Positions 1,809-17,397 of a stretch of 64,000 nt of DNA are shown piece by piece (the first letter of the stretch is position 1; the number at the start of each line of letters is the position of its first letter). This DNA comes from Bdellovibrio sp. ZAP7 (GTDB lineage: Bacteria > Bdellovibrionota > Bdellovibrionia > Bdellovibrionales > Bdellovibrionaceae). The notes under the pieces were generated by a model. The model saw only the letters and a list, made by a program, of their open reading frames with translations. It made no database searches and was not told where the DNA came from. The position numbers and the translations under genes were made by a program. The stretch covers positions 2,728,001 to 2,792,000 of the forward strand of contig NZ_CP030082.1 of the NCBI RefSeq assembly GCF_006874645.1, written 5' to 3'.

Positions 1809-4309
1809 TCAGCCTCCACTGCACAGAATAAGTTACTGTAGTAACTGCGAGTCGTTGAACCAGCCCAGAATGTCGAATAACGGGAACTCAATCCCGAATG
1901 TGTTGAATAACTTGTAGCAAGCATATGAACGTTATACTGGATAGAATCCCCGGTACCATTTACGGGATAAGTACTCATTTGCCCCGTCAATTGGTACTCG
2001 GACATTTTTCTCATGTTTTGACTTGAGCTCAATGTCCACGCGCAAACTGGAAGTCCCATCGCCGGGATAAAATAAGATGTCGCACTTGTTCCACCACAAG
2101 GGATCCCCCAAGTCGCATAACCAAAGTACGCGTACCAACCAGCTGAATTTGTTGTATAAAAATAAGGTCCCAACGTACCATTGAAATGGAAAGAACCATG
2201 ATCCGAGTTACCAGCATCCAAAGTCGACGTCGTCGCTTGAATCGTGATGGGAGTGGATGCGCCGCTCGTTCTTACGAATGTATCCGAGAATACAGTTCCT
2301 ACACCAATTGGATCTTGAATACCAAAACGCGAAATACACTGATTGGTCGCAGGGCTTCCAATAAAGTGCTTCAAGTTTGCGTAGTTATCCCAGGCATTCA
2401 AGGAATTCCCGCCCACATTCATTGACACGAATGAATTGCCCGGAGCCAACCACTCGCTGATTGTCGTCGCACGTGTGACCGGAGTGTATAAATCCGGATC
2501 ACAAAGAGGGTTTTTCGGTGCGGCCCCGGCCAGTAAAGAACTCATATAACCTGGTTCACCCGCGATGTACGGCAATGGCGTTGCAACCAAATATTCACGA
2601 CGACGCAGCAAACGCTTCGTGCCGTACGCCGTCGACTGTACGTTACACATTTTGCTGCCGGCCGCTTGAGTAAAGATAGATACCGCAGGTCTATGCTTTT
2701 CACCGGTCGGTCCTGGATCATTAGTAATAGCTGATGCAATTTCAGCATCCGTCAACGAAGTCGTGCTACTTAATCCAACCCAACCCGATCCTGATTTCAC
2801 ATAACAAGAATCCTGCGTCCACCATGCTTTATGATGGCCATAGAATACGTTCCCCATCACTCCGAGGGCATTGCTCGGTGGAGTTGTACTGTTATCTACG
2901 GAATTCAAAACATCAACACAACCATTCGGACCGCATGTCGCGGAAGTTTTCGTCCAATTACAAGCAACGCGATAACGGTCCACCATCACGTTGTAACCGA
3001 AGTCATAGTAACCAGCATCATAGGACTTGCTTGGTTTTGAAGGACCTGTCGTCGCAGGAACTGCTCCCAAACCACTGTATACGCAACGCTGATTGTGACG
3101 AGGGTCACTGCTGGCGTTGATGTTTAAGCACATTTCATAGTTTGCAGCATCACGTTGCACCAAGACCATATAGTCTGGTGGCACGTGAGCTTTGACCGTA
3201 TAAAGAGCCATGTTTGAACAGTCCGTGGTATTTTGGCATGGCAATTCCTCCGCATAGGTCGCCCCTGAAGAATCTGTTTTAACGACGGAGATCGCATAAT
3301 AATATGTTTGCGGAGGAGCCGCTAAAGCCGTGTCTTCACAGTATGGAGAGCCGGTTACTTCACAAACTTTGCAAGAAGCAGTCGTCGTCGAAGTACAAGC
3401 TGTCGAAGCGGTCATATCAATCGACGTGGTCGTTGAGCGCACGATTTTATATTTGGTTGCGCCCGTCGCATTGCTAAATGGCAGCCAAGTCATATTGAAC
3501 TGACGACCTGTTGGGCCACTGGTCGCATTTGGAGCAAGACCAAAACCACGGAAGTTCAAAACACCGCGATAGTAGTATGTCGTATCACTGGTTTTACCAC
3601 TACCGAAACTGTCTGAATAAGTTTGACCAAGGACGAAGGACTCATTCCCATCTTCCGCAGCTAAGTAACTCATGTAAGCTCTTGCCGAGAATTTATAGTT
3701 TACCCCCGAGCGCAAACCTGTAATGTCGATGTTTTCGACGTTACCGTTTGCAGATGCCACAAGTGTTGCTGTGCCATTCCCATTTTTTGGCTGAGCGTAA
3801 ATGTGAATAGAATCAAATGCCCCCGTACTGCCATTCAACGAAACAGTTGCTGTTGTTTTACCGGTGATAGTCACTCCCGCAATACCATAAAAAGTCACCG
3901 TCGAAACTTGTTTCGAATTGCCATCTTCAGCGCCCGACGTCGCATCAATTGCTTGCACTTTGTAAGTGTAAACCTGTCCTTCAGAAAGACTGTCCGAGTC
4001 TGTGTAAGTAGTTTGGTCCGCATCGACGGCACCAACAAGAGTCCACTCATTTACACCTGTTGCGGAGTTTGCACGAAGAGAATAAATATTATAACCAAGA
4101 GTCGAACGATCTGCTCGCGCCCAAGAAACTTTCACCGCAGAAGGATATCCACCCAAATTTTTTGCTGAAGTTGCACCGGCAAACCAAGCACTTGTTGATG
4201 CTGCTGCACCAGTGCTCTCGCGTTCCTTAAGACAACCGGAAATAAAAACCGAAACCGTTACCAAGAACGAAATCGCAACAACCTTGAACATATTGTATTG
4301 AGATTTCAT
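1805..4309 (-). CDS. Fibronectin-III-type surface lipoprotein, paralogue of its downstream neighbour
   Basis: About 834 residues from the ATG at 4309, chosen because GGAG lies just upstream; a TTG at 4327 would add six residues without an obvious ribosome-binding site. The signal peptide ends FISGC, a lipobox. Two fibronectin-III-like repeats follow in the first 230 residues (IYSLRANSATG; YTYKVQAIDATSG; IDITGLRSGVNYKF), then a Cys-rich middle containing YYDFGYNVMVDRYRVACNW. The ending is rich in Ser, Tyr and Trp. The same order is seen in the partial downstream gene, so this is a tandem duplication. Likely exposed on the cell surface or in the periplasm; binding partner unknown. A sigma-28-like promoter motif lies about 50 bases upstream. 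Confidence 0.82.
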   Translation of the reverse strand: MKSQYNMFKVVAISFLVTVSVFISGCLKERESTGAAASTSAWFAGATSAKNLGGYPSAVKVSWARADRSTLGYNIYSLRANSATGVNEWTLVGAVDADQTTYTDSDSLSEGQVYTYKVQAIDATSGAEDGNSKQVSTVTFYGIAGVTITGKTTATVSLNGSTGAFDSIHIYAQPKNGNGTATLVASANGNVENIDITGLRSGVNYKFSARAYMSYLAAEDGNESFVLGQTYSDSFGSGKTSDTTYYYRGVLNFRGFGLAPNATSGPTGRQFNMTWLPFSNATGATKYKIVRSTTTSIDMTASTACTSTTTASCKVCEVTGSPYCEDTALAAPPQTYYYAISVVKTDSSGATYAEELPCQNTTDCSNMALYTVKAHVPPDYMVLVQRDAANYEMCLNINASSDPRHNQRCVYSGLGAVPATTGPSKPSKSYDAGYYDFGYNVMVDRYRVACNWTKTSATCGPNGCVDVLNSVDNSTTPPSNALGVMGNVFYGHHKAWWTQDSCYVKSGSGWVGLSSTTSLTDAEIASAITNDPGPTGEKHRPAVSIFTQAAGSKMCNVQSTAYGTKRLLRRREYLVATPLPYIAGEPGYMSSLLAGAAPKNPLCDPDLYTPVTRATTISEWLAPGNSFVSMNVGGNSLNAWDNYANLKHFIGSPATNQCISRFGIQDPIGVGTVFSDTFVRTSGASTPITIQATTSTLDAGNSDHGSFHFNGTLGPYFYTTNSAGWYAYFGYATWGIPCGGTSATSYFIPAMGLPVCAWTLSSSQNMRKMSEYQLTGQMSTYPVNGTGDSIQYNVHMLATSYSTHSGLSSRYSTFWAGSTTRSYYSNLFCAVEAE

Positions 4310-4360
4310 AGCACTCCAAGCTCGCAAAAATCATCCCTGTTAAAAACAATTCACAAGGAC

Positions 4361-4447: not shown

Positions 4448-7400
4448 TTATAAGCAACTCGAAGCAGCTGCTGCATTTTGGAACTTCATGATGATCTCAC
4501 GTTGATATGTTCCACCACGACCATCTTGAACTTTCAGATAGTAGGTTCGCGAAACTATTCCGGTGCCTGTGTTAAGACATGAGGGAAGTTTGATAGTCCA
4601 GACGTTCGACGTGGTATTAATACTTCCTGGAGCTGAGGTCGTCGTGAATCCCAACGAATAGGAATCATTTGTACCGTCGGCATCCACGTAAGAAAGTGTA
4701 TTCGTATAGGATTTCTGCCACGAATTTCCTGACTTAGAATTTTGTGCTAAATTGATACAGATAGTGAATGCCGTCGTTAATGAGTTTGCAGTACTTCCCG
4801 TACATCCGTTGCTTCCCGAAGTCAGGCCAATGCTCGTTGGAGCACGATTCGTGTTATCCACCTGAACCGTCACTGCAACCTGACTATATATAGTAGGATC
4901 ATCTGTTTTGGTCACCGTGAAATTCAAAATGTAGGTTTTGCTAGTCCCAGGTAAAGGATTGTCCCCGTCCGTAAAATTCGTAGCAATATTATAGATGAAA
5001 TCCTGATCGCCTGAACCTTCCACTGTGGAAGGCGCCTTGATCATGGCTGCGCGGCAGGAACCTCCACCGATCGTCACATAACAAGTTGGACCAGAAACGA
5101 TATAAGAATAAATATTTTGCGCGTCCTGAGTTTTCGCAACAGCATGAAGCGTGATTGGCGTGGTCACTCCTTCAGCTGTCGTCACCATAGTTGTATCAAT
5201 ACCACCTTGTTGCACAGTCACAACCATAGGGGCCGGACTTGGGGCGATCACCATTTTGAATTTATGAGATGCTGAAACTCCGCCCACATCCGTTGCAGTT
5301 AACTCAACATAATAGGTTCCTGCAGTACCGAAATCAGGATTCCAAGCCCCCGTCAAAGCTCCCGAGGACAACTTGAATTTGATATTCATACTAAGACAAG
5401 TATCCGTATACGGCGATCCCAATCCCGTTGTATTGACCATACAAGTCCAAGTAATGTCTTCTCGGGAATCTTGAATATCCAAGTCAGGATCACTGAACAT
5501 TTCCGCCACAGGAATCGACATCGTTTGATTTTCCGTACCGTCGATTTCATCGACGTTCGGAGACGTGATCTCTGTGATCGGGCGATTTGTATTCACGGTA
5601 TCAAAATAGAAAACCTGTGATTTTGTCGCCATCAAGTTTTGATCTGTAGCCACAACCTGGAAGGAACAAGTATTTTCCGAGTCAAAGGCCGGATACCCAT
5701 CCAAGCGCACTTCTCCGGTTGAACTATTAAATGAAATTGTCGTTGTACTGCTCCAGTCACATGAACTGTCACTGGACTGCAACGCAAAGGTCATCGCGGT
5801 CGGATTTGGATTTGGATCGCGCGCAACTCCTAAAGAAACCGAGAATGTAGTTCCTTCGATGAAACTGCCTCCTTGGGCATTCACATCCCAAACTGGCGGG
5901 TCATCTGTATTGGTTAAGTTAAATACGACCGTTTGGGTCGCCAAAATCATGGTACCGTCCAGATTTGAATCTGCTGAAGTATTATACTTCAACCTGAACG
6001 TAACCGAGAATGAACCATCACTGCCAATCATCTGCAGATAGCTCGGGATAAAGCTCCACACGAAACTAGGTGCAATAGGATTCGTAAAATCAGAAGTATA
6101 ATTTGTTAAATTTCCGGCACCACTGGGAGTTCCGTTTTTGATTGTCGTGACTCCCACGACGGACAGAATCAGCGGATCCCCTTCTGGATTTGTGACAGGG
6201 ATGCTGATGTCGGAAGAAATCCCCTCTGTAAATGCGCCCGTAATTGTCGAAGCAAATACAGGGATCTGCACAGAGTTCACCGTGATCGTTCCTTTGGCCA
6301 CGTGAGTAGCCGACGTCATCGTCGTCACCAGAACTTCAAAATTATACGTATTGCCAGCGAGAGCATTCGTTGGTGACCAACGTAAAACTCCCGAAGAATT
6401 GATGGTCATACCTGAAGGGCCCGACACCAGAGAATACGTGACTCCCAAATTTGGCGTCGCCACTGGATTATCCAGGTCACGGCAATATGCTGTCAGACTA
6501 AAGGAGTTGATGCGATTGGCTTTCATCACCAACTGAATTGGTTCATTACAAACTGGGTCACGATTTGCGCGCGCGACTTCATAATGAATTTTGATTCTTG
6601 AACTGAGATCAGCACTGTCCGTAAACGTCGGATTGAAATCGACGGATTCTTGGTCTTCACTTGTGAAAGTATAAATCAATGGCGAGCCACTCACCGTTTC
6701 GGTGGAGCTGTCATTTCTTGTCAATAACCAAGAGGTCGGCTGTATGCGCGCAGTCGAATTCAAGGGGTTGACGGCCACAACGTCGGCAGAAATTGTTTCT
6801 AGCTGTTTCGAAGATTTTGCGCCGTAACCACTCGTCGTCAAAACCGGGCTGCTCCAAACATAGTAAAGAACAGCGGGAGCCCAATTATAAGAAATACTAA
6901 GGGAAGGATTTTCGCTCGCGAGGGTGTTGGTGATTTTAGCAATGATATCGTTACGGCTCAGTAGGAAAGTAAGAACTTGGGAATTAGTTTGAGTCCGGCA
7001 GTTTTGACAAACCAACTCCACGCTGTTTGCGATGGAATTGAAGGTGTTCTGAGAAACTTTGACGTTAGGGATATTAAATCCCCACTTCAACAACCAAAAT
7101 ACCGCAGTCGTTACGTTAGTCACAGTCACCTGCGAAGATAGCAAAGGGGCTTCAAAGATAAAATCGCCAGAGGGATGGGATTCTCGATACACTTTCACCG
7201 TCAGATCCAGTGGTTGAGGAACCGCTGGATCAGTGCGCACACCGTAATCACCTTTCGTCAATGTCGAGGGAATCACTAGGCTTCCATTTTCAGCACCTAG
7301 TTCAGTGACGAAAGTCCCCAAACCATAAGCATCCGTTGGAGCATTGTAGAATACGCGCGTGTTAGCAGTTCCCGAAACATAGTACTCAGAACTCGATAAT

Positions 7401-7489
7401 GAGTTCTGAGAACCTGAACTACTCAGTTCACTTTTTGAGCATCCCAGAATGAGACACATCGATAGAATTGTTAGCAAATACGCGCGCAT
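4448..7489 (-). CDS. Large lipoprotein with cadherin/Ig-like repeats
   Basis: The product is 1013 residues and starts with a lipoprotein signal ending LILGC (Cys17). The rest is a series of beta-sandwich repeats of cadherin-like or putative-Ig (He_PIG) type. Visible repeat phrases are GLTYSLVSGPSGMTI-like text near residue 355, EGDPLILSVVG, DPNPNPTAMTFALQ, DPDLDIQDSREDITW, FGTAGTYYVELTATD and NRAPTSIGL. The Asp/Asn-Pro turns suggest calcium-type linkers, but I cannot assign ion sites. It probably forms a long rod anchored in the outer membrane. About 120 bases separate it from the FN3 lipoprotein downstream, with no clear terminator. An adhesin-like role is inference. Confidence 0.8.
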   Translation of the reverse strand: MRAYLLTILSMCLILGCSKSELSSSGSQNSLSSSEYYVSGTANTRVFYNAPTDAYGLGTFVTELGAENGSLVIPSTLTKGDYGVRTDPAVPQPLDLTVKVYRESHPSGDFIFEAPLLSSQVTVTNVTTAVFWLLKWGFNIPNVKVSQNTFNSIANSVELVCQNCRTQTNSQVLTFLLSRNDIIAKITNTLASENPSLSISYNWAPAVLYYVWSSPVLTTSGYGAKSSKQLETISADVVAVNPLNSTARIQPTSWLLTRNDSSTETVSGSPLIYTFTSEDQESVDFNPTFTDSADLSSRIKIHYEVARANRDPVCNEPIQLVMKANRINSFSLTAYCRDLDNPVATPNLGVTYSLVSGPSGMTINSSGVLRWSPTNALAGNTYNFEVLVTTMTSATHVAKGTITVNSVQIPVFASTITGAFTEGISSDISIPVTNPEGDPLILSVVGVTTIKNGTPSGAGNLTNYTSDFTNPIAPSFVWSFIPSYLQMIGSDGSFSVTFRLKYNTSADSNLDGTMILATQTVVFNLTNTDDPPVWDVNAQGGSFIEGTTFSVSLGVARDPNPNPTAMTFALQSSDSSCDWSSTTTISFNSSTGEVRLDGYPAFDSENTCSFQVVATDQNLMATKSQVFYFDTVNTNRPITEITSPNVDEIDGTENQTMSIPVAEMFSDPDLDIQDSREDITWTCMVNTTGLGSPYTDTCLSMNIKFKLSSGALTGAWNPDFGTAGTYYVELTATDVGGVSASHKFKMVIAPSPAPMVVTVQQGGIDTTMVTTAEGVTTPITLHAVAKTQDAQNIYSYIVSGPTCYVTIGGGSCRAAMIKAPSTVEGSGDQDFIYNIATNFTDGDNPLPGTSKTYILNFTVTKTDDPTIYSQVAVTVQVDNTNRAPTSIGLTSGSNGCTGSTANSLTTAFTICINLAQNSKSGNSWQKSYTNTLSYVDADGTNDSYSLGFTTTSAPGSINTTSNVWTIKLPSCLNTGTGIVSRTYYLKVQDGRGGTYQREIIMKFQNAAAASSCL

Positions 7490-7609: not shown

Positions 7610-8695
7610 ATGATATGGGCTTTAACTTTCTTTTTGACGTTTTTGACTGGCCGGGCATCTTTCGCCCAGCAAACTGCCGCTCCTACGTTGAATGAAAAAC
7701 CAAAATTAACAGACGAAGAAACCGAGCAAAGACTGGGTAAAGACTGGAAAGGGATCCTCTATATTTGTAATCCCTATTGTGAGTTCATATCAGTTCGCGA
7801 AGAGAAATCCTGGAATCCTCCCTTAGGAAAAAGGGATTCCGACTGGGAGCACACCAAGACCGTCGCGCAATCAGATCCTCTCTATCCCCTTTTAATTTCA
7901 AAAAATCCCGTCTTGCCATTCATCAATCGTAAGCTTCAGGCTTCCAATAAAGATGAAATCAAATCTGAAATTAAGCCTCCCAAATATGCCGCCTACAATT
8001 TTAACTGGGGTTATGCAGTTTCGGGTGGATTGCTGCTTTCCCAAAGCTCCTGGACTGGTAATACTCAGCTACAAAACGACCTGTCATCCGAAGGGGTGCA
8101 ATACATGCCTTTCGTCCAACTCCAATTCATGAAAGGTCAGCCAACCAAGCTCTATTCTTTGTGGATTCAACACGAGATTTTTGGAAACTATGCGTCCTCT
8201 CCTGGCTATAAATCAAAGGACGTCAATCTGTCGGTCACCAATACGTCTTTAGGCTTTGGCTACCGTGCATGGCTAACTTATCCCGACTTCAAAATCGGCC
8301 CTAGCATTAGTTACGACACCGAGGCCTGGACAACGTCCATCAATTCTCTGCAGCACTTTTCATTCGACAGGCAATCATATTTGATCGGTGTCGCTGCGAA
8401 GTGGGATCACTGGATGTTCAATCTGGATACAGCTTTCATGTCCAAGATTTCCGAGCAACAAAAATTCCGACAAGACCCTTTTACTTTGAATTGGTACCGC
8501 CTGAAAATTCAGAAGTGCACTCCTGATATCAGTTTGTACGACATTACTTTCGGTGTTTGTGGAGGTGGAATGGTGCTGCTTGATCAACAAGAAGCCGCTC
8601 TTGCCAACAACATTCTTCTGTCGGAGACCAGCACAATGAACCGCACAGACTTTGGAGCTTACTTCTCGATTCGTATTGGTGAGGATCTATACTAA
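7610..8695 (+). CDS. Exported protein, probable outer-membrane beta-barrel
   Basis: The product has 361 residues, with an N-terminal hydrophobic segment and likely cleavage after ASFA, so it is Sec-exported. Residues 1-130 are polar and contain a CNPYC pair. From about residue 135 alternating strands with aromatic girdles appear (NFNWGYAVSGGLLL, LGFGYRAWLTYP, FGAYFSIRIG), as in small outer-membrane barrels, and the chain ends in Tyr. The stop TAA overlaps the next start (TAATG), so it is almost certainly co-translated with the vWA gene. There is no convincing Shine-Dalgarno before the ATG; a short dyad ATTCG/CGAAT (7581-7596) lies just upstream. Function unknown. Confidence 0.72.
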   Translation: MIWALTFFLTFLTGRASFAQQTAAPTLNEKPKLTDEETEQRLGKDWKGILYICNPYCEFISVREEKSWNPPLGKRDSDWEHTKTVAQSDPLYPLLISKNPVLPFINRKLQASNKDEIKSEIKPPKYAAYNFNWGYAVSGGLLLSQSSWTGNTQLQNDLSSEGVQYMPFVQLQFMKGQPTKLYSLWIQHEIFGNYASSPGYKSKDVNLSVTNTSLGFGYRAWLTYPDFKIGPSISYDTEAWTTSINSLQHFSFDRQSYLIGVAAKWDHWMFNLDTAFMSKISEQQKFRQDPFTLNWYRLKIQKCTPDISLYDITFGVCGGGMVLLDQQEAALANNILLSETSTMNRTDFGAYFSIRIGEDLY

Positions 8696-10065
8696 TGGTT
8701 ACTCAAGCAGCTCTTTCCTTCATTTTAATGCTCGACTATTCCGGCTCCATGGAGCAGCCACTGAACAAGACTCCCAAGATTCAGATCGTACAAAAGCAAG
8801 TGCATGCCCTCCTTTCCACAGCGCCTGTTCAAAGTAGCTCCGAAGCCATCGTGTTTGGAACCAAGCCAGAAAAAGAATGTAAAGACGTACGATTGATGAA
8901 TGGAAAAAATCCAACGTTGCAAAAACAAGTCATGGAAATGAAGCCCGGGGCTTTTGGTAAGACTCCCCTGACTCAGGGATTCAGAACCCTGGTGGGCCGC
9001 TTGCAAAAATATCCCGGGACCAAAGCCGTGGTTATCACTGACGGTTCTGACACCTGTGGAGAAAATCCTTGCGAGTTTTTAAAAGAGGCAGACAAGAAAG
9101 TCAAAACAGATAAACCCTATGAGATCTTCATGGTGGGATTGGATTTGAAAGAAGACCGAAGCCAAATGCAATGCTTCAAGGATTTGAAACTTAACAATTT
9201 CAAGATTCACTTCTCTGATATTGATTCTAAAGAAGACCTGTTAAATCAACTAAAGGCCGCGCAATCGCTGAACAAAGACATCGAAACGGAAATCAAAGAC
9301 TCGATGCGCACGGGCGGCACCAACATCAAAATTTACAAACTAAAAGGACAAGGAAGAAACTCCCGCCTCGGAAGTACGAACCCGCAGGATCAGAAACCAC
9401 CGTCTCCACCGGCAATTATCGAGATCACGGGAGCGCCGGAAGAAGCTCATTTCTCCATCCAAAATGAAAAGTTCAATCAGTCTTGGGAAGGTCCCTTTGC
9501 GATCACAGTTCCATCGGGTGAATACAAAATTCGCTTTGAAGACGCTGCGAACGGCACGGAAATTACCTTTAAACTTTTGCCAGGAACTTTGACAAAAATT
9601 CCCTGGGCCCAATTAATGAAAAAGTCCGTCGGTGCAGTTGACATGAACGAAATGGCACTGACGCTTCAGTGGACGCCAGAGAACTCCACCAAAGAAATTC
9701 ATGGCGATTTAAAGCCGATTGAAACGATTGCCCGACTGGACAATAAAGTCACAGCTCTTCCCAATATCCCCTTTGGAAAATGGAGCGTCGAGGTGATCTC
9801 TCCGCCTTGGCTAATGAAACGAATGCCGGCGAAATCCATCGTGATTGCGAATGGAATCAAAAACAAAATCAACATTTCAGAACTTTTTAAAGACGAAATC
9901 AAATGGGTGGATGCACCGCAAACTGCAGGCCCGCAAGTTATGGTTATTCAAAACAAAGACTCTCAGGAAGAACGTCACTTTCTTCCTGCGGGTCAGTTTA
10001 AACATATTCCGATTCTTAAAGATACAGAAGCAAACTGGCTGACTCCTGAAACACCTAAAAACTAG
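8695..10065 (+). CDS. von Willebrand factor A domain protein
   Basis: The product has 456 residues. The vWA fold starts immediately: a hydrophobic strand runs into DYSGSM (Asp14, Ser16, Ser18), the DxSxS part of a MIDAS metal site. Thr90/Thr93 and the TDGSDT loop (Asp116) complete it. Residues from about 240 onward form further beta-rich modules, including a PEGA-like stretch (FAITVPSGEYKIRFED). vWA domains with intact MIDAS normally bind a partner through Mg2+. No signal peptide precedes the domain, although its coupled neighbour is exported. Either it works in the cytoplasm, leaves by another route, or the true start lies elsewhere. The start overlaps the previous stop by one base. Its end overlaps the convergent phosphatase gene by four bases. 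Confidence 0.85.
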   Translation: MVTQAALSFILMLDYSGSMEQPLNKTPKIQIVQKQVHALLSTAPVQSSSEAIVFGTKPEKECKDVRLMNGKNPTLQKQVMEMKPGAFGKTPLTQGFRTLVGRLQKYPGTKAVVITDGSDTCGENPCEFLKEADKKVKTDKPYEIFMVGLDLKEDRSQMQCFKDLKLNNFKIHFSDIDSKEDLLNQLKAAQSLNKDIETEIKDSMRTGGTNIKIYKLKGQGRNSRLGSTNPQDQKPPSPPAIIEITGAPEEAHFSIQNEKFNQSWEGPFAITVPSGEYKIRFEDAANGTEITFKLLPGTLTKIPWAQLMKKSVGAVDMNEMALTLQWTPENSTKEIHGDLKPIETIARLDNKVTALPNIPFGKWSVEVISPPWLMKRMPAKSIVIANGIKNKINISELFKDEIKWVDAPQTAGPQVMVIQNKDSQEERHFLPAGQFKHIPILKDTEANWLTPETPKN

Positions 10066-11783
10066 TGAGAGGGGCCGTTGATATTGTGTTTGACGATAAA
10101 GTAAGATAAATCATCGATTAAACCTGACTGCCCACGCCACTCATTGGTATCTTTCTTAGCCATGTTCAAAATCGCATCAGCCGCAAAAGAGTCATTCGTC
10201 ACTTTTGTCAAAACTTTCAAAATCCGTCTTTCTTCAAAGGCCTTGTTTTCGCTATTCACGATGTCTTTAAGACCATCAGAATAGAACAAGAAGACACTGC
10301 CTGCTTCAAACGATAAAGACGTTTCCGTGAACTCCGCATCCAAGCTTTCACCCAGGCGAGGCCCGTTGACGGCCTCAAAGACATTTATATCGGTACGTTT
10401 CATACCATCTCGCGGAGTAAAGTAATACGTCGGCTCGTGGCTGGCATTACAATAAGTCATAGTGTTATCACGCTTATTGAAAGCCGCGATCAAGCACGTC
10501 ATATTCAAAGCCCCGCGAGAAGTTTCAAACACCGCGCGATTCATCGCTTGCATCAATTGAGCGGGCCCCTGCAGGTTGGATTTAAAACTTGCCACGACGG
10601 CACACGCCGCGGACGTAATTAGAGCGGACTGCAGCCCATGCCCCGTCACGTCGCAAATACAAACAATAAAGTGGTCTTCCGTTTCAACATAAGTCCACCA
10701 GTCCCCACCACATTGACTTGCAGGTTCATAAAAGCCCGCAAATTGGTAGCGACTGTTTGAATAGATATCCAGAGGAAAGAATTTGCGCTGCAGATCTGAA
10801 GCCAGGACCATTTCGGCATCGATACGCGCCTTTTCCTCGTGCACGGACATAAGCTGCTTGATATGAGTCACCATATCATTGAAAAGTCCGGCCAACTGCC
10901 CGACTTCATCTTTTGAGCCCACTTCAAGATGCACATCCATTTGCCCGGCCCCGAAGTTCTGCATAGCATTTCTTAAGCGCACCACACTGCGGATCAAGGC
11001 GCCCGAAGCAAATAACGCTGCCATAATCGTGATCAACATCAAGGCTGCGGCGAAAATAATGCCACGATAAACGAAGAAATACGCTGCACGCTCTGGCGCC
11101 GATCTTGCCGTCATCGAGATGATTAATAAAGATTCATTGGGAATACGGTAAAAATTCAAAAGGTACGTTTCACCATCGCGTTTGTCTTTGATCTCAACTC
11201 GGCCCTTTTCAAAGCTGTTATCAAAGATTTCTTTAACGCCATTACCGACAATAGACATAAGTTCCCGGCCAATCGGGAATCCCGGAGGTCCAGCGATCAC
11301 GTAGCCATCATACCCCACCAGGATGTTTTCGCTGATTCCGCGTTCCGCAAAGTAGGTCTCAAGACGACTGCGATCAAAGGCAAAAAGCTCATAGCTGTTT
11401 TTAAGCTTATGGCAATAGGTATAAACCATGCGGCCTTCAATTTCGATCCAAGTGATGCTGCGAAGGCCTGAACACATAGCCGCAGCATAGGTTTTAATGA
11501 TGCTGATGGCCTCGTCTTTTTGTACTCGACCAGCCACATCTAAAACATTATTCATTGCCGTATCCACGTGCGCAACGAACAATGCCTCTTGTGGGTCGTT
11601 CTTCATACGCATCAGATTTAAATCAATCTGGCTGGCAATGTATCGCGACTGAAGCTGATTCCACTCATATACGAAAGCTTTTTTATCATCGACGAAGGTG
11701 ACAACCGATAGACTTAAGAATACCAACAAACAGATTGTTGGTAAAAGAACCATCCCCAATAAAAGTTTAATTCTAAAGCTCAT
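10062..11783 (-). CDS. Membrane HAMP-SpoIIE (PP2C-type) serine phosphatase
   Basis: The product has 573 residues. Topology reads as a transmembrane helix at about 7-30, a periplasmic sensor region at 31-235, a second helix at 236-260, then HAMP at about 261-315 (including EVGQLAGLFNDMV). The SpoIIE/PP2C catalytic domain spans about 345-570. Metal-binding acidic motifs are present: GGDWW (Asp361), CDVTGHG (Asp378) and FYSDGLKD near residue 510. Such RsbU/SpoIIE-type enzymes dephosphorylate anti-sigma-factor antagonists or similar Ser/Thr phosphoproteins after sensing an external signal. No partner STAS or kinase gene is nearby, so the target is unknown. The periplasmic region resembles a Cache-like sensor only by position. 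Confidence 0.9.
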   Translation of the reverse strand: MSFRIKLLLGMVLLPTICLLVFLSLSVVTFVDDKKAFVYEWNQLQSRYIASQIDLNLMRMKNDPQEALFVAHVDTAMNNVLDVAGRVQKDEAISIIKTYAAAMCSGLRSITWIEIEGRMVYTYCHKLKNSYELFAFDRSRLETYFAERGISENILVGYDGYVIAGPPGFPIGRELMSIVGNGVKEIFDNSFEKGRVEIKDKRDGETYLLNFYRIPNESLLIISMTARSAPERAAYFFVYRGIIFAAALMLITIMAALFASGALIRSVVRLRNAMQNFGAGQMDVHLEVGSKDEVGQLAGLFNDMVTHIKQLMSVHEEKARIDAEMVLASDLQRKFFPLDIYSNSRYQFAGFYEPASQCGGDWWTYVETEDHFIVCICDVTGHGLQSALITSAACAVVASFKSNLQGPAQLMQAMNRAVFETSRGALNMTCLIAAFNKRDNTMTYCNASHEPTYYFTPRDGMKRTDINVFEAVNGPRLGESLDAEFTETSLSFEAGSVFLFYSDGLKDIVNSENKAFEERRILKVLTKVTNDSFAADAILNMAKKDTNEWRGQSGLIDDLSYFIVKHNINGPSH

Positions 11784-11832: not shown

Positions 11833-12606
11833 GTGACCAATAAACGCTCAGAACTTATCCTTAAATTGTATGGCGTCTTTTCAGGATTTCTGATCCTTTA
11901 TATTGCCTATTACTTTGCGACTCATACAAGTCCAATAAAACAAAAGAACTCTCCAGATGAGAATAAGAAGTATCCCGTTATCGGCAGAATCGTATTTCTA
12001 GACGGCGACGTTCGCATCCGTATGGCAGGAGAACTGCTTTGGCTTCCGGGTAAAGAAAACGACCTCATTCACGACAACGACAACGTCTTTACTGGCACGA
12101 ATGGCAAAGTTCACGTTTATCTGACTCAACAGACGAATCTTTATATTTCCAAAGACTCCCTGGTTCGCATCACCCGTCGCAACAATCTGAACACCATACA
12201 TTTAGATGAGGGCCAGGTTCAAATGTCCTCCGGCACCGACGAGTCTGCGGTTCTTCAAGTGAACGATCGCTCTCGCCTCCTTAAACTGACCGGTGTCGAA
12301 GAAAAAATCTCTTATCAAGGCGAACGCAGTCGGCAACGCCAGCAAAAAGCTAAACTGGCCGAAGCTCCCCAAGAATCTTTCTCGACCGCGCAAAGTGAAG
12401 TTCCTCAGGACCAAGGCCCATTGGGACCTGCTCCAAGTGATGAAGTCGAGGAAATAGCTGCAACTACAGAAAAAGTCGAAGAAAAAAAAGTTGATCTCGA
12501 CGACGAGACGACGATGAGCTTTATTATTTGGCTTTCCATTGGCTATGGAGTCTTCTCGCTCCTTGCCGTGAAAGAGTTTTTGGCTATGCGAAAAAACGAA
12601 AGCTAG
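11833..12606 (+). CDS. FecR-like membrane protein
   Basis: The product has 257 residues and starts at GTG, divergent from the phosphatase gene. It has a transmembrane segment at about 10-29 and a beta-rich region at about 46-150. That region resembles a FecR domain: GRIVFLDGDVRIRMAG, then TGTNGKVHVYLTQQTNLYIS, then DEGQVQMSSG. An acidic/Gln-rich linker follows, and a second hydrophobic helix lies at about 228-247. FecR domains elsewhere sense or scaffold in the periplasm. This gene lies 170 bases upstream of the motor-like operon and shares its orientation, so it may belong to the same envelope system, but that is inference. The Shine-Dalgarno is weak, so the GTG is not certain. Confidence 0.7.
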   Translation: MTNKRSELILKLYGVFSGFLILYIAYYFATHTSPIKQKNSPDENKKYPVIGRIVFLDGDVRIRMAGELLWLPGKENDLIHDNDNVFTGTNGKVHVYLTQQTNLYISKDSLVRITRRNNLNTIHLDEGQVQMSSGTDESAVLQVNDRSRLLKLTGVEEKISYQGERSRQRQQKAKLAEAPQESFSTAQSEVPQDQGPLGPAPSDEVEEIAATTEKVEEKKVDLDDETTMSFIIWLSIGYGVFSLLAVKEFLAMRKNES

Positions 12607-12777: not shown

Positions 12778-13386
12778 ATGGCATTGAACTGGAAGCTTCT
12801 TATTGCAACTTTATTGTTGGGCGCATGCTCATCAAAACTAGTTGTACAAAGCGAGCCATCCACTGCAGCCGTGTACATCTCCGCGACTGGCAAAGCCGAT
12901 CGCGTAAAAGTTGGCGACACTCCCCTTGAGTTGACGGAGATGCAGATCGCTGAGACTTTGAAACTAAGCCCTGAATCTTCGAACTGGGTTGAATTCTCCT
13001 TTGAAAAGAAAGATCACGAAGCGAAAACAATCATGCTCCCGTCCAATCGCTGGGGCGAAATGACTCGTATCGTGAAAGTAAAGTTAAAACCTTCAGATGA
13101 GGCTTCAACGACAGCGACGAAGATTTTGAAATACTTCTTCAATGCTAAAAAATTCGTAGAAACTCGTCAGTTTGAAGCTGCACATCAGGAAGTCGACAAA
13201 GTTTTGGCTATCGACAGCCAAAATTCTCAAGCGATGACCATGAAAGCTGGCATCTACTATTTGCAAAGCAATATCGACGAAGCTCGTAAGCTTTATAAGA
13301 AGGCTTTAGAGATCGATCCGGGCTCCAGTGACGCGATTAAAATGTTAGAGAAAATCCAGCGAGATCAGGGAGGAACCGTCGAATGA
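12778..13386 (+). CDS. PEGA/TPR lipoprotein of the motor-like operon
   Basis: The product has 202 residues. The start is fixed by a strong GGAGGAAAC site just before the ATG. The signal ends LLGAC, so Cys17 should be lipidated. Residues 20-105 form a PEGA-like beta domain (VVQSEPSTAAVYIS; VKVGDTPLEL), a module common in periplasmic, surface-layer-type contacts. Residues 117-200 contain tetratricopeptide repeats (ARKLYKKALEIDPGSSDAIKML). The gene overlaps the next one by four bases (ATGA). Co-transcription with the rotor-like fusion and motAB suggests a periplasmic scaffold or peptidoglycan/outer-membrane contact for that machine, which is inference. Confidence 0.85.
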   Translation: MALNWKLLIATLLLGACSSKLVVQSEPSTAAVYISATGKADRVKVGDTPLELTEMQIAETLKLSPESSNWVEFSFEKKDHEAKTIMLPSNRWGEMTRIVKVKLKPSDEASTTATKILKYFFNAKKFVETRQFEAAHQEVDKVLAIDSQNSQAMTMKAGIYYLQSNIDEARKLYKKALEIDPGSSDAIKMLEKIQRDQGGTVE

Positions 13387-15233
13387 GGTTGATTCTTCTC
13401 CTGCTCGTTTTGTTCACATCTCAATTCGCATTCGCCCAGGCCACAAACCTGGCATCTGACGTTGTGACTAAGCGTAATAACATTGAAAACGAAGTTCGCC
13501 GCAACCTGGAAGACTTGATCTCGACTCGATTGGAGAAAAAGACTTTCAATGTGGCTGTTCGTGCCCAATTAAGCCCTATTCAACCTCCTAAAAAAGAAAA
13601 AGAACCAGAGGCTGACAAGCTTCCGGAAGGCATGGACATTGGCTCCATCGACGTTCGTAACGTCGTTGATTCCTATGAAAAGAAAATCGAAGAATTAAAG
13701 CTTAAAAAAGAACAGCTTAAAGAAGAGAAGCAATTCCAAATTTCTTCGTTAGAAGTGTTCGTGGGCCTGGATACTCAAGCTTACCCTGAATCCTATGCCA
13801 AAGAACTCAATAAGTGGCTACAAGACCGTTTAACGAAAGACTATGGCAAAGTTGCCAAAGCAACGGTTGGCAAAATCAATCCTAAAATTGAAAAACCAAA
13901 AGATCCGATCACTGGTAAACCAGAAGCGACGCCAGAAACTTGGGCACAAATGCTACGCAAATGGGCCCCCGTCATCGCGGCGGGACTTTTGGCATTGGCA
14001 CTATTCATCATGGGTCTTTTGCTAAGATCTGGTATGAATTCAATCGCTTCTGCACAAAAACCTCTGACCATTGAACAAAAAGGTGAATTGGCCATTGAAG
14101 GTACCGGTACAGACGCTTTGGGCGGTGGTGACGAACAAGAGCTTCTTCCTGCGCCAGTGAGTCGTCTTGCCAGCGAAGAACTTGATATGATGATCAAGAA
14201 AATTGCGTTCGTGTGCATGGAGATCGGTGCCAGAACCAATGAATTGATCAAAGTTTGGATTGATGCGAACGAAGAAGGCTTTGCAAAAACAGCCTTGCTC
14301 GTGGATTGCTTGATCACGGCACGCGAAAAAATCATGAAAGAAACTGGTGCGATGGCAGCTTTGCGCATTCCATTGGAACAAGACATGATTTCTAATTATG
14401 AAGAACATTTGGCAGAGGCCTATCGCAATGTGGGTATGATGGATGATCCTGAAAAGTTAAAAATGCTTAAGGGCATCTATTGGGATTTGATCAGTGTTCG
14501 TACGTTGGGTATCCAATCTTTGCGTCGTCCATTCGACTTCTTGAATCAGGCGGCTCCGTCTGACGTTAAAGAGCTTTTGGATCACCAACCGGATGATACC
14601 CGCGCTTTAGCTATGATGTATCTTCCTAAAGAAACGCAATCCGATCTATTAACCAGCATGGATGAGTTTAACAAATTGAATACGATCCGTAGCATGTTAT
14701 TGAATGCCGAAGTTGATGTTAAGAAACTTTGGGATCACGATACGAGTGTGAAAGTGGTTGTTGAGTCGCAACAATCTAAAGAACAAACTCGTCTGGTCAA
14801 TCTCTTCCCAAGAACATTGGAAGCGATCCAAACTCTTACTCCAGTCGACGAGATTACGACTTTACGCAAAGTTTCCCCATCGCTTCCTATGGATGGCCGC
14901 AACTTGAAACACAATTATCTGACGTTGGCCTTTGTTGATGAATGGAAACCAGACTATCTCCGTCGCTTGACGCAAATTGCGACGGCGGAAGAAGTTCTAA
15001 ACTTGATTCGCGTGATCCCTCAAGCACAAGAGGCGATCCTGGCTCAGTGTCCTCCAATGATGAAGACAATCTTGTCAGACGATTTGAAACTGAGCTCAAA
15101 AGTGGATCTGAACGTTCAAAACCAAAAAGTAAAAGCTTTGAAAGCGAAATGGGCGAAACTTATCCAGTCAGAGAACATCACGATCGCGCGTCTGTATGTT
15201 GATCGTGAGATGGGAGAAGCAAATGTCGCTTAG
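13383..15233 (+). CDS. FliF-like/FliG-like rotor fusion protein
   Basis: The product has 616 residues. A signal peptide (about 1-18) is followed by a periplasmic part. Residues 33-65 resemble the FliF ring-building segment (IENEVRRNLEDLI... then VAVRAQLS). A charged coiled coil lies at 97-117, and residues 118-165 give a second FliF-like strand/helix (ISSLEVFVGLD). A transmembrane helix spans about 194-214. The cytoplasmic part begins with ELIKVWID (287-294), which recalls the FliF tail that docks FliG. Residues 394-430 resemble FliG middle domain (LLDHQPDDTRALAMMYL in place of the EHPQ motif). Residues 530-600 resemble the FliG C-terminal motor domain. Homology is judged by eye and is distant. 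The gene sits between a lipoprotein and motAB, so a rotor-like partner of these stators is the simplest reading. Confidence 0.72.
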   Translation: MRLILLLLVLFTSQFAFAQATNLASDVVTKRNNIENEVRRNLEDLISTRLEKKTFNVAVRAQLSPIQPPKKEKEPEADKLPEGMDIGSIDVRNVVDSYEKKIEELKLKKEQLKEEKQFQISSLEVFVGLDTQAYPESYAKELNKWLQDRLTKDYGKVAKATVGKINPKIEKPKDPITGKPEATPETWAQMLRKWAPVIAAGLLALALFIMGLLLRSGMNSIASAQKPLTIEQKGELAIEGTGTDALGGGDEQELLPAPVSRLASEELDMMIKKIAFVCMEIGARTNELIKVWIDANEEGFAKTALLVDCLITAREKIMKETGAMAALRIPLEQDMISNYEEHLAEAYRNVGMMDDPEKLKMLKGIYWDLISVRTLGIQSLRRPFDFLNQAAPSDVKELLDHQPDDTRALAMMYLPKETQSDLLTSMDEFNKLNTIRSMLLNAEVDVKKLWDHDTSVKVVVESQQSKEQTRLVNLFPRTLEAIQTLTPVDEITTLRKVSPSLPMDGRNLKHNYLTLAFVDEWKPDYLRRLTQIATAEEVLNLIRVIPQAQEAILAQCPPMMKTILSDDLKLSSKVDLNVQNQKVKALKAKWAKLIQSENITIARLYVDREMGEANVA

Positions 15234-15801
15234 ATCATTGCTCCTTTCTTTATTGGTCACCTTCGCTATCGCACCAGCGGCTCACGCGGGATTCCGTGTA
15301 GCCGGTGGTTTGGGTTTAGGGTCGACGACAACCAGCAATGAGATCTCTGAGGACGAAGGCCCTCTGACGATGCTTATTTCTGTGGACTATGTTTATCACT
15401 CGAAGTTGCTTCTGGGCTTTGAACACTTGCGGTCCTTGTCTATGAGCCCTCCCGCAACTTCGAATGCATTTTCTGGGTTGTATTTTCAATGGTATTGGAA
15501 TGCAGTTCCGACACCTTACTTGACCGCCGATAAAATGAATACGAATGAAATCATATTCCGAGACATCGGATATTTCTGGGGAACCGGCGTGGGCATTGCC
15601 CAATCAGCGAATCTTCCCGATGCAGAAGGAAAAACCTCGAATGCGGCAGGCTTTTACCTCTCCCCTCGCGTCGGTGCTGATTTACAGCTGACTGGCAAGA
15701 TGGGTGCGCGCGGCGAGTTCATCATGGCAACGACGGTGATCGGCACAGGTACGATCACATCGATGTCCTTGATGGGTTCCTTGTATTTTAGTTTTAATTA
15801 A
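15223..15801 (+). CDS. Small outer-membrane beta-barrel of the motor-like operon
   Basis: The product has 192 residues. The start at 15223 is preferred because GGGAGA lies seven bases upstream and a clean signal peptide follows, ending AAHA. The in-frame ATG at 15196 would place 9 residues before it. The gene overlaps the end of the rotor-fusion gene by 11 bases. Alternating strands (FRVAGGLGLGST; LTMLISVDYVYHSKLLLGFEHL; GFYLSPRVGADLQL; MGSLYFSFN) ending in Phe-Asn indicate an eight-strand-type barrel. It could supply the outer-membrane end of the assembly encoded by this operon. No enzymatic motif is visible. Confidence 0.78.
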   Translation: MSLRSLLLSLLVTFAIAPAAHAGFRVAGGLGLGSTTTSNEISEDEGPLTMLISVDYVYHSKLLLGFEHLRSLSMSPPATSNAFSGLYFQWYWNAVPTPYLTADKMNTNEIIFRDIGYFWGTGVGIAQSANLPDAEGKTSNAAGFYLSPRVGADLQLTGKMGARGEFIMATTVIGTGTITSMSLMGSLYFSFN

Positions 15802-15816
15802 TTAAGGAGTACGGCA

Positions 15817-16605
15817 ATGAATTTATCAGCACTATTAGGTCTTTTGATGGCCTTCTCGGTTATGATCGGAGCGATGGTCACATCGACTGATAAAGCTAAG
15901 ATCTTCTTGGATGCGCATGCCTTTGTCATCGTTATCGGTGGTACAATCGCAGCCAGCCTTCTAAGCTTCTCTGCTAAAAAACTCCTGGCACTGGGCAAAG
16001 TGTTCTTTAAAAGAACCCTGGGTAAAAATGACGACATCAACGTAGCCGTCAATGAGATGGTGGACCTGGCGAAAGGCTATCGCGAAAACGACAACTATCT
16101 TCGCGACAAACACGCGAGCTTAAAAACTCCATTTTTGAAAGAAGCGATCGGCATGTTGAACGAAGGTGCCATCGACACAGATCAAATGGATAAAATCCTG
16201 AATAAACGCGCCCACAACATGGCTCACCGTCATGAAGAAGATGCTGAGATCTTTAAAGCTCTGGCAAAGTTCCCTCCTGCCTTCGGTCTATTGGGTGCGG
16301 TTATCGGTATCATCTCTTTGATGGCGAACATGGGGGGCGCTGATGCCGCTCAAAAAATGGGCCCTTCGTTTGCGATTGCCTTGGTTGCGACTATGTACGG
16401 TATCGCGGTAGCAAACTTTATCTTTTTGCCACTGGGTGAGAACTTGGCAAAAGCCAATCGTATGGATCAAATCATCCGTCAAATGGTGATCGATGGATTT
16501 AAATTAATCCGCGATAAAAAGCATCCTATCGTAGTTGAAGAAAGCATTAAGAGTTACCTGCTTCCAAGTGAACGCGGTGAATCTGCGAATAAGAAAGCGG
16601 CTTAA
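15817..16605 (+). CDS. motA: MotA-type stator proton-channel subunit
   Basis: The product has 262 residues, close to usual MotA length, with an AAGGAG ribosome-binding site. Four hydrophobic helices are visible (about 1-20, 32-52, 152-172, 183-206). The large cytoplasmic loop between helices 2 and 3 holds the region that contacts FliG, with Arg131 and Glu140 as candidates for the conserved charged pair. The channel prolines are present: FPPAFG (Pro153/Pro154) and FLPLG (Pro205). MotA and MotB together couple ion flow to torque on a rotor. Two bases separate it from motB. The neighbouring rotor-like fusion, instead of flagellar genes, is unusual. Confidence 0.93.
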   Translation: MNLSALLGLLMAFSVMIGAMVTSTDKAKIFLDAHAFVIVIGGTIAASLLSFSAKKLLALGKVFFKRTLGKNDDINVAVNEMVDLAKGYRENDNYLRDKHASLKTPFLKEAIGMLNEGAIDTDQMDKILNKRAHNMAHRHEEDAEIFKALAKFPPAFGLLGAVIGIISLMANMGGADAAQKMGPSFAIALVATMYGIAVANFIFLPLGENLAKANRMDQIIRQMVIDGFKLIRDKKHPIVVEESIKSYLLPSERGESANKKAA

Positions 16606-16607
16606 TT

Positions 16608-17366
16608 ATGGGTTTGCGTAAGAATAACCTTAAAGCGGTGCCAGTGCCGGAAGAGCAAAAACCTCTTCACGAGCGCTATCCGGAACTCAATGATGATCAT
16701 GAGTCCCAACCGCCGATTGTTATCAAAAAAGAAGAGGGCGAGGGTCCTTGGATCGTCAGTTACGCTGACTTGATGACATTGCTGATGGGTTTCTTTGCGA
16801 TGATGTACTCGATGTCAAAGCCCGACGTCGCAAAATTGGAACAAGCTAAGAAAGCCAACACGGAAAGATTCGGCGGCCATTACGAAGAGCCTTACAAGGA
16901 TTTAGAAAACGCCTTGAAGAAAACTTTGAAAGCCAACGGACTTGAAAAACAAGTGCAAATTGAATCCGGTTACGATGGCGTGACAATGACTTTCACAGGC
17001 ACTCTGTTCTTTGAAAGTGGTGACTTCCACGTTAAGGAAGAAGCCGTCAACATCGTCAACAAATTGGCTGGCACCATTCAAAAAGACGCCAAAGGTTATA
17101 ACATCAAAATCGAAGGCCATACGGACAGCGCACCCATCTCCCACCCTATTATCGCAAGTAACTGGGAACTTTCGGGACTTCGTGCCGCCCGTATCGCTCA
17201 GCTTTTTGAAACCAATGGTTTTGCAAGAAAACAGCTTTCGATGATTGGCATGGGTGATACCAAGCCGATTGTTCCGAATGAAAATACGGACGGCACTCCG
17301 AATCTGGAAAACCGATCCAAGAATCGCCGGGTTGTGATTAAGGTCTTTAAAGAAGTAACAGAATAA
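16608..17366 (+). CDS. motB: MotB-type stator subunit with OmpA/peptidoglycan-binding domain
   Basis: The product has 252 residues. A roughly 45-residue cytoplasmic tail precedes the single transmembrane helix (about 47-68). WIVSYADLMTLL supplies the essential proton-carrying aspartate (Asp54). A plug/linker region follows, and residues about 130-248 form an OmpA-like peptidoglycan-binding domain (KIEGHTDSAP; NWELSGLRAARI; NRSKNRRVVIKV). It anchors the MotA/B complex to the cell wall. It directly follows motA and is the last gene before a strong bidirectional terminator. All residues needed for a working stator appear intact. Confidence 0.94.
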   Translation: MGLRKNNLKAVPVPEEQKPLHERYPELNDDHESQPPIVIKKEEGEGPWIVSYADLMTLLMGFFAMMYSMSKPDVAKLEQAKKANTERFGGHYEEPYKDLENALKKTLKANGLEKQVQIESGYDGVTMTFTGTLFFESGDFHVKEEAVNIVNKLAGTIQKDAKGYNIKIEGHTDSAPISHPIIASNWELSGLRAARIAQLFETNGFARKQLSMIGMGDTKPIVPNENTDGTPNLENRSKNRRVVIKVFKEVTE

Positions 17367-17370
17367 AAAA

Positions 17371-17397
17371 AAGCCCGGTGATGAACCGGGCTTTTTC
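17371..17397. terminator. Bidirectional intrinsic terminator after motB
   Basis: A perfect 9-bp stem (AAGCCCGGT, 17371-17379, with ACCGGGCTT, 17385-17393) and a five-base loop is followed by T residues on the plus strand. On the other side an A-run gives U residues for the minus-strand transcript, so it can end both motB and the convergent small secreted-protein gene. Confidence 0.9.

Follow-up and report, generated by a model that had tools for sequence, protein, structure and literature searches.

The window analysed here is the whole 64,000-nucleotide stretch of Bdellovibrio sp. ZAP7 DNA at positions 2,728,001 to 2,792,000 of contig NZ_CP030082.1. It contains an operon of five genes that encodes, in order, a lipoprotein, a 616-residue protein that joins a predicted FliF ring-building domain to FliG in a single chain (hereafter the fusion), an outer-membrane beta-barrel, and the stator proteins MotA and MotB (Table 1). 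Successive genes are spaced by -4, -11, +15 and +2 bases. An initial annotation, made from the DNA letters alone, had described five packed genes running up to one terminator with overlaps or gaps of at most 16 bases, a signal peptide and one transmembrane helix in the fusion, intact MotA prolines, and MotB Asp54. All of this was borne out: the open reading frames and a terminal hairpin are present, the largest spacing is 15 bases, the fusion has both the signal peptide and the helix, and MotA P154 and P205 and MotB Asp54 are in place. Its reading of the anatomy, a FliF/FliG fusion beside a lipoprotein, a barrel and MotAB, was also right.

Table 1. Features of the operon and its surroundings. 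Positions are those of the window unless another locus is named.
Feature	Position	Strand	Basis and remarks
Lipoprotein gene	12778-13386	+	Open reading frame; lipobox LGAC, Cys17; TPR repeats, weak PEGA-like N-terminal part
Rotor fusion gene	13383-15233	+	616 residues: signal peptide, RBM3, transmembrane helix, FliG
Predicted FliF RBM3 (S-ring) ring-building domain, fusion residues 20-168	13440-13886	+	Alpha-beta-[insert]-beta-alpha-beta; presumably periplasmic
Single transmembrane helix, fusion residues 190-222	13950-14048	+	Hydropathy; model helix 187-223; occupies the place of FliF TM2
FliG (N-like, middle and C-terminal torque domains), fusion residues 298-601	14274-15185	+	hmmsearch and structure match; presumably cytoplasmic
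Asp566-Asp567, equivalent to E. coli FliG D288-D289 (MotA R90 contact)	15078-15083	+	Alignment; R281 equivalent is Met559
Outer-membrane beta-barrel, 8 strands, signal peptide	15223-15801	+	AF2 model and Foldseek
MotA/PomA-class stator subunit	15817-16605	+	R90, P173 and P222 equivalents kept; E98 replaced by Arg
MotB	16608-17366	+	Asp54 in transmembrane helix; OmpA-like peptidoglycan-binding domain
Terminator-like hairpin at operon end	17368-17396	+	12-bp stem, T-rich tail; works on both strands
FecR-like protein, two membrane stretches	11833-12606	+	Upstream; linked in close relatives L034, L095 and L036; probable accessory
HAMP-SpoIIE (PP2C-type) phosphatase	10062-11783	-	Divergent; similar gene beside L021; probable accessory or regulator
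1013-residue lipoprotein, Ig-like (He_PIG) domains	4448-7489	-	Candidate surface partner; linkage suggested by relatives
840-residue FN3 lipoprotein	1805-4327	-	Candidate surface partner
Second system of the same genome, L021 (G000:C1 3343000-3358000)	7059-13727 of L021		MotA, MotB, PEGA/TPR lipoprotein, barrel-like protein, 330-residue protein, 584-residue fusion; PP2C-type phosphatase adjoining

Scanned on its own against Pfam and NCBIfam, the window fusion matches nothing above cut-off and no FliG or FliF model, its best hit being MgtE_N (E 0.006). Because single-sequence scans came back empty, family-level profiles were needed. Pfam finds FliG_M in seven of 14 fusion-family members (best E 2.5e-9), FliG_C in five and FliG_N in two. 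When the Protein Data Bank (PDB) was searched (hmmsearch) with a profile of 35 fusions from which flagellar FliG was excluded, Thermotoga FliG (1lkv) was found at E 1.1e-25 over the whole of FliG_M and FliG_C, and further solved FliG proteins ranked after it. The same profile matches flagellar FliG from the same phylum at E 1e-11 to 5e-21. The fusion family also aligns with E. coli FliG, and its comparison with the FliG family by hhalign gives E 1.2e-6. In the predicted structure, residues 298-601 match the Salmonella C ring and residues 514-601 match MotAB-bound FliG (8ucs); the FliG_N-like region (residues 298-380) falls inside the aligned range of the C-ring FliG chains, with no separate score. 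The FliG-like stretches of the initial annotation are therefore real, with alignment to FliG at E 1e-25 and both armadillo and torque domains in the model. On sequence homology, the C-terminal part of the fusion is certainly FliG. What it lacks is the FliM-binding EHPQ motif, which none of the 35 fusions has, against 39 of 40 flagellar FliG proteins.

A separate FliG_C-like domain occurs at locus L020 (5620-6348, minus strand), in a soluble 242-residue protein with a coiled-coil tail that lies outside any flagellar cluster. We considered whether this protein could be one piece of a fusion together with its 574-residue neighbour and rejected the idea, as the neighbour's sequence has no FliF or FliG features.

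The AlphaFold (AF2) model of the fusion (predicted local distance difference test, pLDDT, 77.8; predicted template modelling score, pTM, 0.39) opens with a helix, a strand, an insert, a strand, a helix and a strand, followed by the transmembrane helix. Residues 20-168 match Vibrio FliF RBM3 (8z5v) with VIA Z 12.8 and a root-mean-square deviation of 2.4 over 98 residues, and FliF 7cg7 with Z 11.8. Many Salmonella FliF structures follow, mostly at Z 10-12 (from 10.1) and mostly with deviations of 2.2-2.6. Among unrelated folds the top score is Z 9.3, for Ohr/OsmC. The FliF-like ring-building domain claimed at the outset is thus found in the predicted structure as RBM3. The profile-profile (HMM-HMM; hidden Markov model) comparison proposed as a check was positive for the FliG family and weak for FliF, where hhalign gives E 0.016 and is placed on the RBM3 start only. 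An HMM search against 31 FliF sequences is likewise weak (best E about 0.002), and FliF Pfam matches are absent from the window fusion and from the 14 family members scanned. As modelled, the chain order of RBM3, TM2-like helix and FliG is that of a FliF-FliG fusion reduced to its S-ring half.

The lipoprotein, initially described as a PEGA/TPR protein, contains TPR repeats (TPR_19, E 3.7e-8), while its PEGA match stays below cut-off (E 0.043). It is probably an outer-membrane or periplasmic coupling partner. The AF2 model of the barrel (pLDDT 82.5) has eight strands, and its Foldseek matches are NspA (closest, E 1e-7), OmpA and OprF. MotA P154 and P205 correspond to the E. coli channel prolines P173 and P222, and MotB combines its transmembrane Asp54 with a peptidoglycan-binding OmpA domain. 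Judged from its sequence, the operon MotA belongs to the MotA/PomA (flagellar) class and not to TolQ/ExbB. In our tree, MotA proteins of this system stand apart from AglR-type proteins (support 100/99) and from flagellar MotA1 of the same genus, with the branches near the flagellar ones not firmly resolved.

We compared the residues through which stator and rotor touch. In E. coli, MotA R90 contacts FliG D288/D289, and MotA E98 contacts FliG R281 (PMC12505986). The window proteins have MotA R90 and the fusion aspartates D566/D567, together with Arg at the E98 position and Met559 at the R281 position. By alignment, then, the R90-D288/D289 contact appears retained and the E98-R281 contact lost on both sides. 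This pattern extends through the family: the D289 equivalent is acidic in 32 of 35 fusions and the D288 equivalent in 26, and R90 is kept in nearly all MotA proteins of the system. The R281 equivalent is Arg in only six of the 35 fusions versus all 40 flagellar FliG proteins, and among MotA proteins of the system Glu at the E98 position is confined to L079/L081. The separate MotAB1 of the window genome retains E98. Two groups of diverged fusions, of 640 residues (L082-L084) and 750-780 residues (L079-L081), have unchanged neighbours, and in the longer type the partner MotA lacks R90 too. FliM and FliN are each encoded just once in the window genome, at a shared site; the best fit is a rotor turning without a switch.

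Conservation of the gene set extends across the phylum. Of 369 Bdellovibrionota genomes, about 48, belonging to seven families, encode a full-length fusion, counting profile matches at E < 1e-50 tallied by hand; the 261 genomes with any match to the fusion profile do not give a prevalence, since ordinary FliG accounts for most of those matches. Additional genomes carry divergent fusion forms of 600-900 residues. At 34 fusion loci inspected closely, we found the TPR lipoprotein in 28, MotA in 26, MotB in 25 and the barrel in 22; in 21 the lipoprotein gene directly precedes the fusion, on the same strand. Distant families repeat the order lipoprotein, fusion, barrel, MotA, MotB, which rules out a gene set that arose by chance. 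The initial annotation had expected the order to be kept in other Bdellovibrionota, and the set indeed recurs phylum-wide. None of the three outcomes it had named as counting against it (a chain without alignment to FliG or FliF, a model without such folds, an order not kept) was observed. A scan of a wider collection with the window protein gave no match, and a weak one with a narrower alignment gave eight loci, all from Bdellovibrionota or from genomes already examined.

Variants exist even within the window genome, which has a second, diverged system at 3350-3357 kb (L021; Table 1) whose fusion passes the Pfam FliG_C cut-off. Another Bdellovibrio carries a lone fusion gene (L045, 9712-11406, plus strand) with no lipoprotein, barrel or MotAB adjoining. 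A further, more strongly diverged MotAB set lies at L196 (6642-10513, plus strand) in genome G109, together with genes for a TPR lipoprotein and a 554-residue signal-peptide protein; it is perhaps a third subtype.

Several lines of evidence separate this system from the flagellum. Two near-complete genomes, G331 (99% complete) and G109 (97%), encode a fusion and MotAB of the same type, and searches of both for FliF, FlhA and FliM/FliN found none. Outside its own family, the window MotA has its nearest relatives in the MotA proteins of G331 and G109 (support 89/96). Because these two genomes without flagellar genes keep fusion and MotAB, the system needs no flagellum. Moreover, the fusion never lies within a flagellar cluster in the loci examined. 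Genome G073, which we take to be B. bacteriovorus HD100, has MotA genes at 129, 2919 and 3172 kb, presumably Bd0144, Bd3021 and Bd3254. The 2919-kb stator pair shares an operon with a FliG-fusion and a TPR lipoprotein (L195, G073:C1 2905000-2924000), so that the MotAB2 of the HD100 literature (Bd3020/3021) probably belongs to this kind of system. HD100 is described as having three MotAB pairs and two FliG copies (PMC3539863). All three pairs are treated as flagellar stators, with milder motility defects in a MotA3 mutant (PMC11323537).

Combining these observations, we propose that the operon encodes a new form of the rotor-stator core known from flagella, here detached from the flagellum itself. 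The architecture is well supported by homology, predicted folds, the conserved gene set and its presence in flagellum-less genomes. From it we infer ring formation, rotation, outer-membrane coupling and a job for the machine. Since two flagellum-less relatives keep the operon, it probably specifies an undescribed envelope motor, and we consider it likely that this is a dedicated, flagellum-independent, proton-driven rotary motor with a switchless, reduced MS/C-ring. Through their predicted RBM3 domains, copies of the fusion would form a ring on the outer side of the inner membrane, with each copy spanning the membrane once and bearing a whole FliG; the FliG parts together would make up a cytoplasmic torque ring. 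MotAB, anchored to peptidoglycan through the MotB OmpA domain, would draw on the proton gradient to push the torque helix of FliG, with MotA R90 and FliG D288/D289 as the point of contact. With no FliM/FliN switch, rotation in one direction is expected. Motion of the periplasmic ring could then pass through the TPR lipoprotein and the outer-membrane barrel to surface lipoproteins with FN3, Ig or FG-GAP domains.

For such a motor we tentatively prefer the job of moving surface adhesins, in gliding or prey handling. We prefer it because large lipoproteins lie nearby, because GYF proteins occur with the system, and because the gliding motor has not been identified. Three large lipoproteins are encoded in the window, at 3-1808, 1805-4327 and 4448-7489. 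Of 30 system loci, 14 have large lipoproteins carrying FN3, Ig-like or FG-GAP domains, versus three of 25 control stretches (P 0.008), by a strict pattern that misses true cases such as those in L042, L089 and L090. GYF_2-domain proteins lie near MotAB or fusion genes in six relatives (L193, L194, L038, L089, L097 and L037), and in the window genome GYF_2 is joined to a PilZ domain beside an AglR-type stator (L023). A GYF domain is found in Myxococcus GltJ as well. Gliding in Bdellovibrio involves neither flagella nor pili, and its unidentified motor is listed as an open challenge in a 2026 review (PMC13104615). Agl-type genes are the established alternative, as an aglS mutant cannot attach to prey (PMC6561027).

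Some observations weigh against a dedicated rotary motor that moves adhesins. The RBM3 assignment comes from structure prediction with a weak sequence signal, and in the AF2 model the individual domains are reliable while their relative arrangement is not. FliF RBM1, RBM2 and TM1 are missing from the fusion, which goes from a signal peptide in their place straight to RBM3. The system is patchy inside Bdellovibrio, where few genomes have close copies of the window type and others have the L021 type or none. The linkage to large lipoproteins is statistical rather than strict, and their genes stand outside the operon. Finally, Morehouse in 2011 reportedly found that every HD100 MotAB pair, MotAB2 included, contributes to swimming, a result that speaks against a role wholly outside the flagellum.

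That last point bears on a different explanation, in which the system belongs to the flagellar motor as an accessory or an alternative component: the fusion would join or cap the MS/C ring, or MotAB would add torque units. The treatment of all three HD100 pairs as flagellar stators, the likely placement of MotAB2 in an operon of this kind, and the flagellar class of the operon MotA are what such a role would lead one to expect. It is nevertheless unlikely. The two near-complete flagellum-less genomes weaken it, and with it the last of the uses put forward in the initial annotation (gliding, twisting in prey, or modifying the flagellar motor). The system has also lost the E98-R281 contact and the EHPQ motif, flagellar clusters never contain the fusion in the loci examined, and the same genome has a separate MotAB1 with E98. 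The operon could also encode a force transducer akin to Tol/Ton, proton-driven but not rotating, in which FliG is only a docking platform and which tethers the outer membrane or moves lipoproteins outward. Barrel, TPR lipoprotein and peptidoglycan-binding MotB would indeed form a trans-envelope chain, with large lipoproteins in the vicinity. However, its MotA is not of the TolQ/ExbB class, and a mere platform has no need of the conserved torque-helix aspartates, which leaves the transducer quite improbable. We regard it as very unlikely that MotAB and the fusion serve as a load or surface sensor, reading resistance and signalling through the PP2C phosphatase and the FecR-like protein. Both of those genes adjoin the operon, and a similar phosphatase gene lies beside L021, but they are linked in some relatives only; what stays constant is the set of motor genes.

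As a dedicated rotary motor, the system would share parts with several known machines and differ from each. With the flagellar rotor and stator (FliF-FliG plus MotAB) it shares the predicted RBM3, a TM2-like helix, FliG_M and FliG_C with a possible FliG_N, the torque-helix aspartates, MotA R90 and prolines, the MotB Asp and the OmpA domain. Unlike the flagellum, its rotor is one chain without RBM1, RBM2, TM1 or EHPQ, and with no extra FliM/FliN. It has no export apparatus, rod, hook or filament, has a barrel and a lipoprotein as outer-membrane partners, and occurs in flagellum-less genomes. Engineered or mutant FliF-FliG fusions of Salmonella, which also put MS-ring protein and FliG in one chain, assemble into rings, and motility persists in the mutant (PMC6079021). 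Those fusions contain full-length FliF and work in flagella, whereas the operon fusion is natural, phylum-wide, non-flagellar and has RBM3 only. The Agl-Glt machinery (Myxococcus; partial in Bdellovibrio) has a proton-driven stator, TPR lipoproteins and outer-membrane barrels in common with the operon, as well as GYF proteins, nearby in relatives. Its AglRQS is TolQ/ExbB-like and has no FliG rotor, in contrast to the MotA/PomA-class stator and proposed FliG ring here; the window genome carries separate AglR-type loci in addition. GldLM, the type IX gliding motor of Bacteroidota, resembles the proposed machine by analogy, as a proton-driven rotary envelope motor that moves surface adhesins, yet no homology was detected between its parts and the operon, and GldLM is not MotAB (PMC13104615). 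We found no description of the fusion in a literature search that left preprints and most subscription papers outside.

FliG and FliF serve as flagellar markers, and MotAB is seen as flagellar while its relatives ExbB, TolQ and AglR are seen as generic. A conserved rotor-stator unit free of the flagellum would show that the torque core is separable from the export and filament parts, with a bearing on flagellum evolution and on the annotation of flagellar genes. It would also provide a concrete candidate for the gliding motor of Bdellovibrionota and a new reading of Bdellovibrio stator mutants. It is possible, though we do not count on it, that these operons represent a third family of rotary motors for bacterial motility, in which the rotor-stator pair of flagella, lacking both export apparatus and filament, turns a trans-envelope ring that moves surface lipoproteins, and that this is the missing motor, or one of several, for Bdellovibrio gliding and prey handling. 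If so, HD100 MotAB2, long counted as flagellar, would belong to the new family.

Beyond the FecR-like and phosphatase genes, the window contains a VWA-domain protein (8695-10065, plus strand) adjoining a 361-residue signal-peptide protein (7610-8695). This pair is retained near the operon in L034, L035 and L095.

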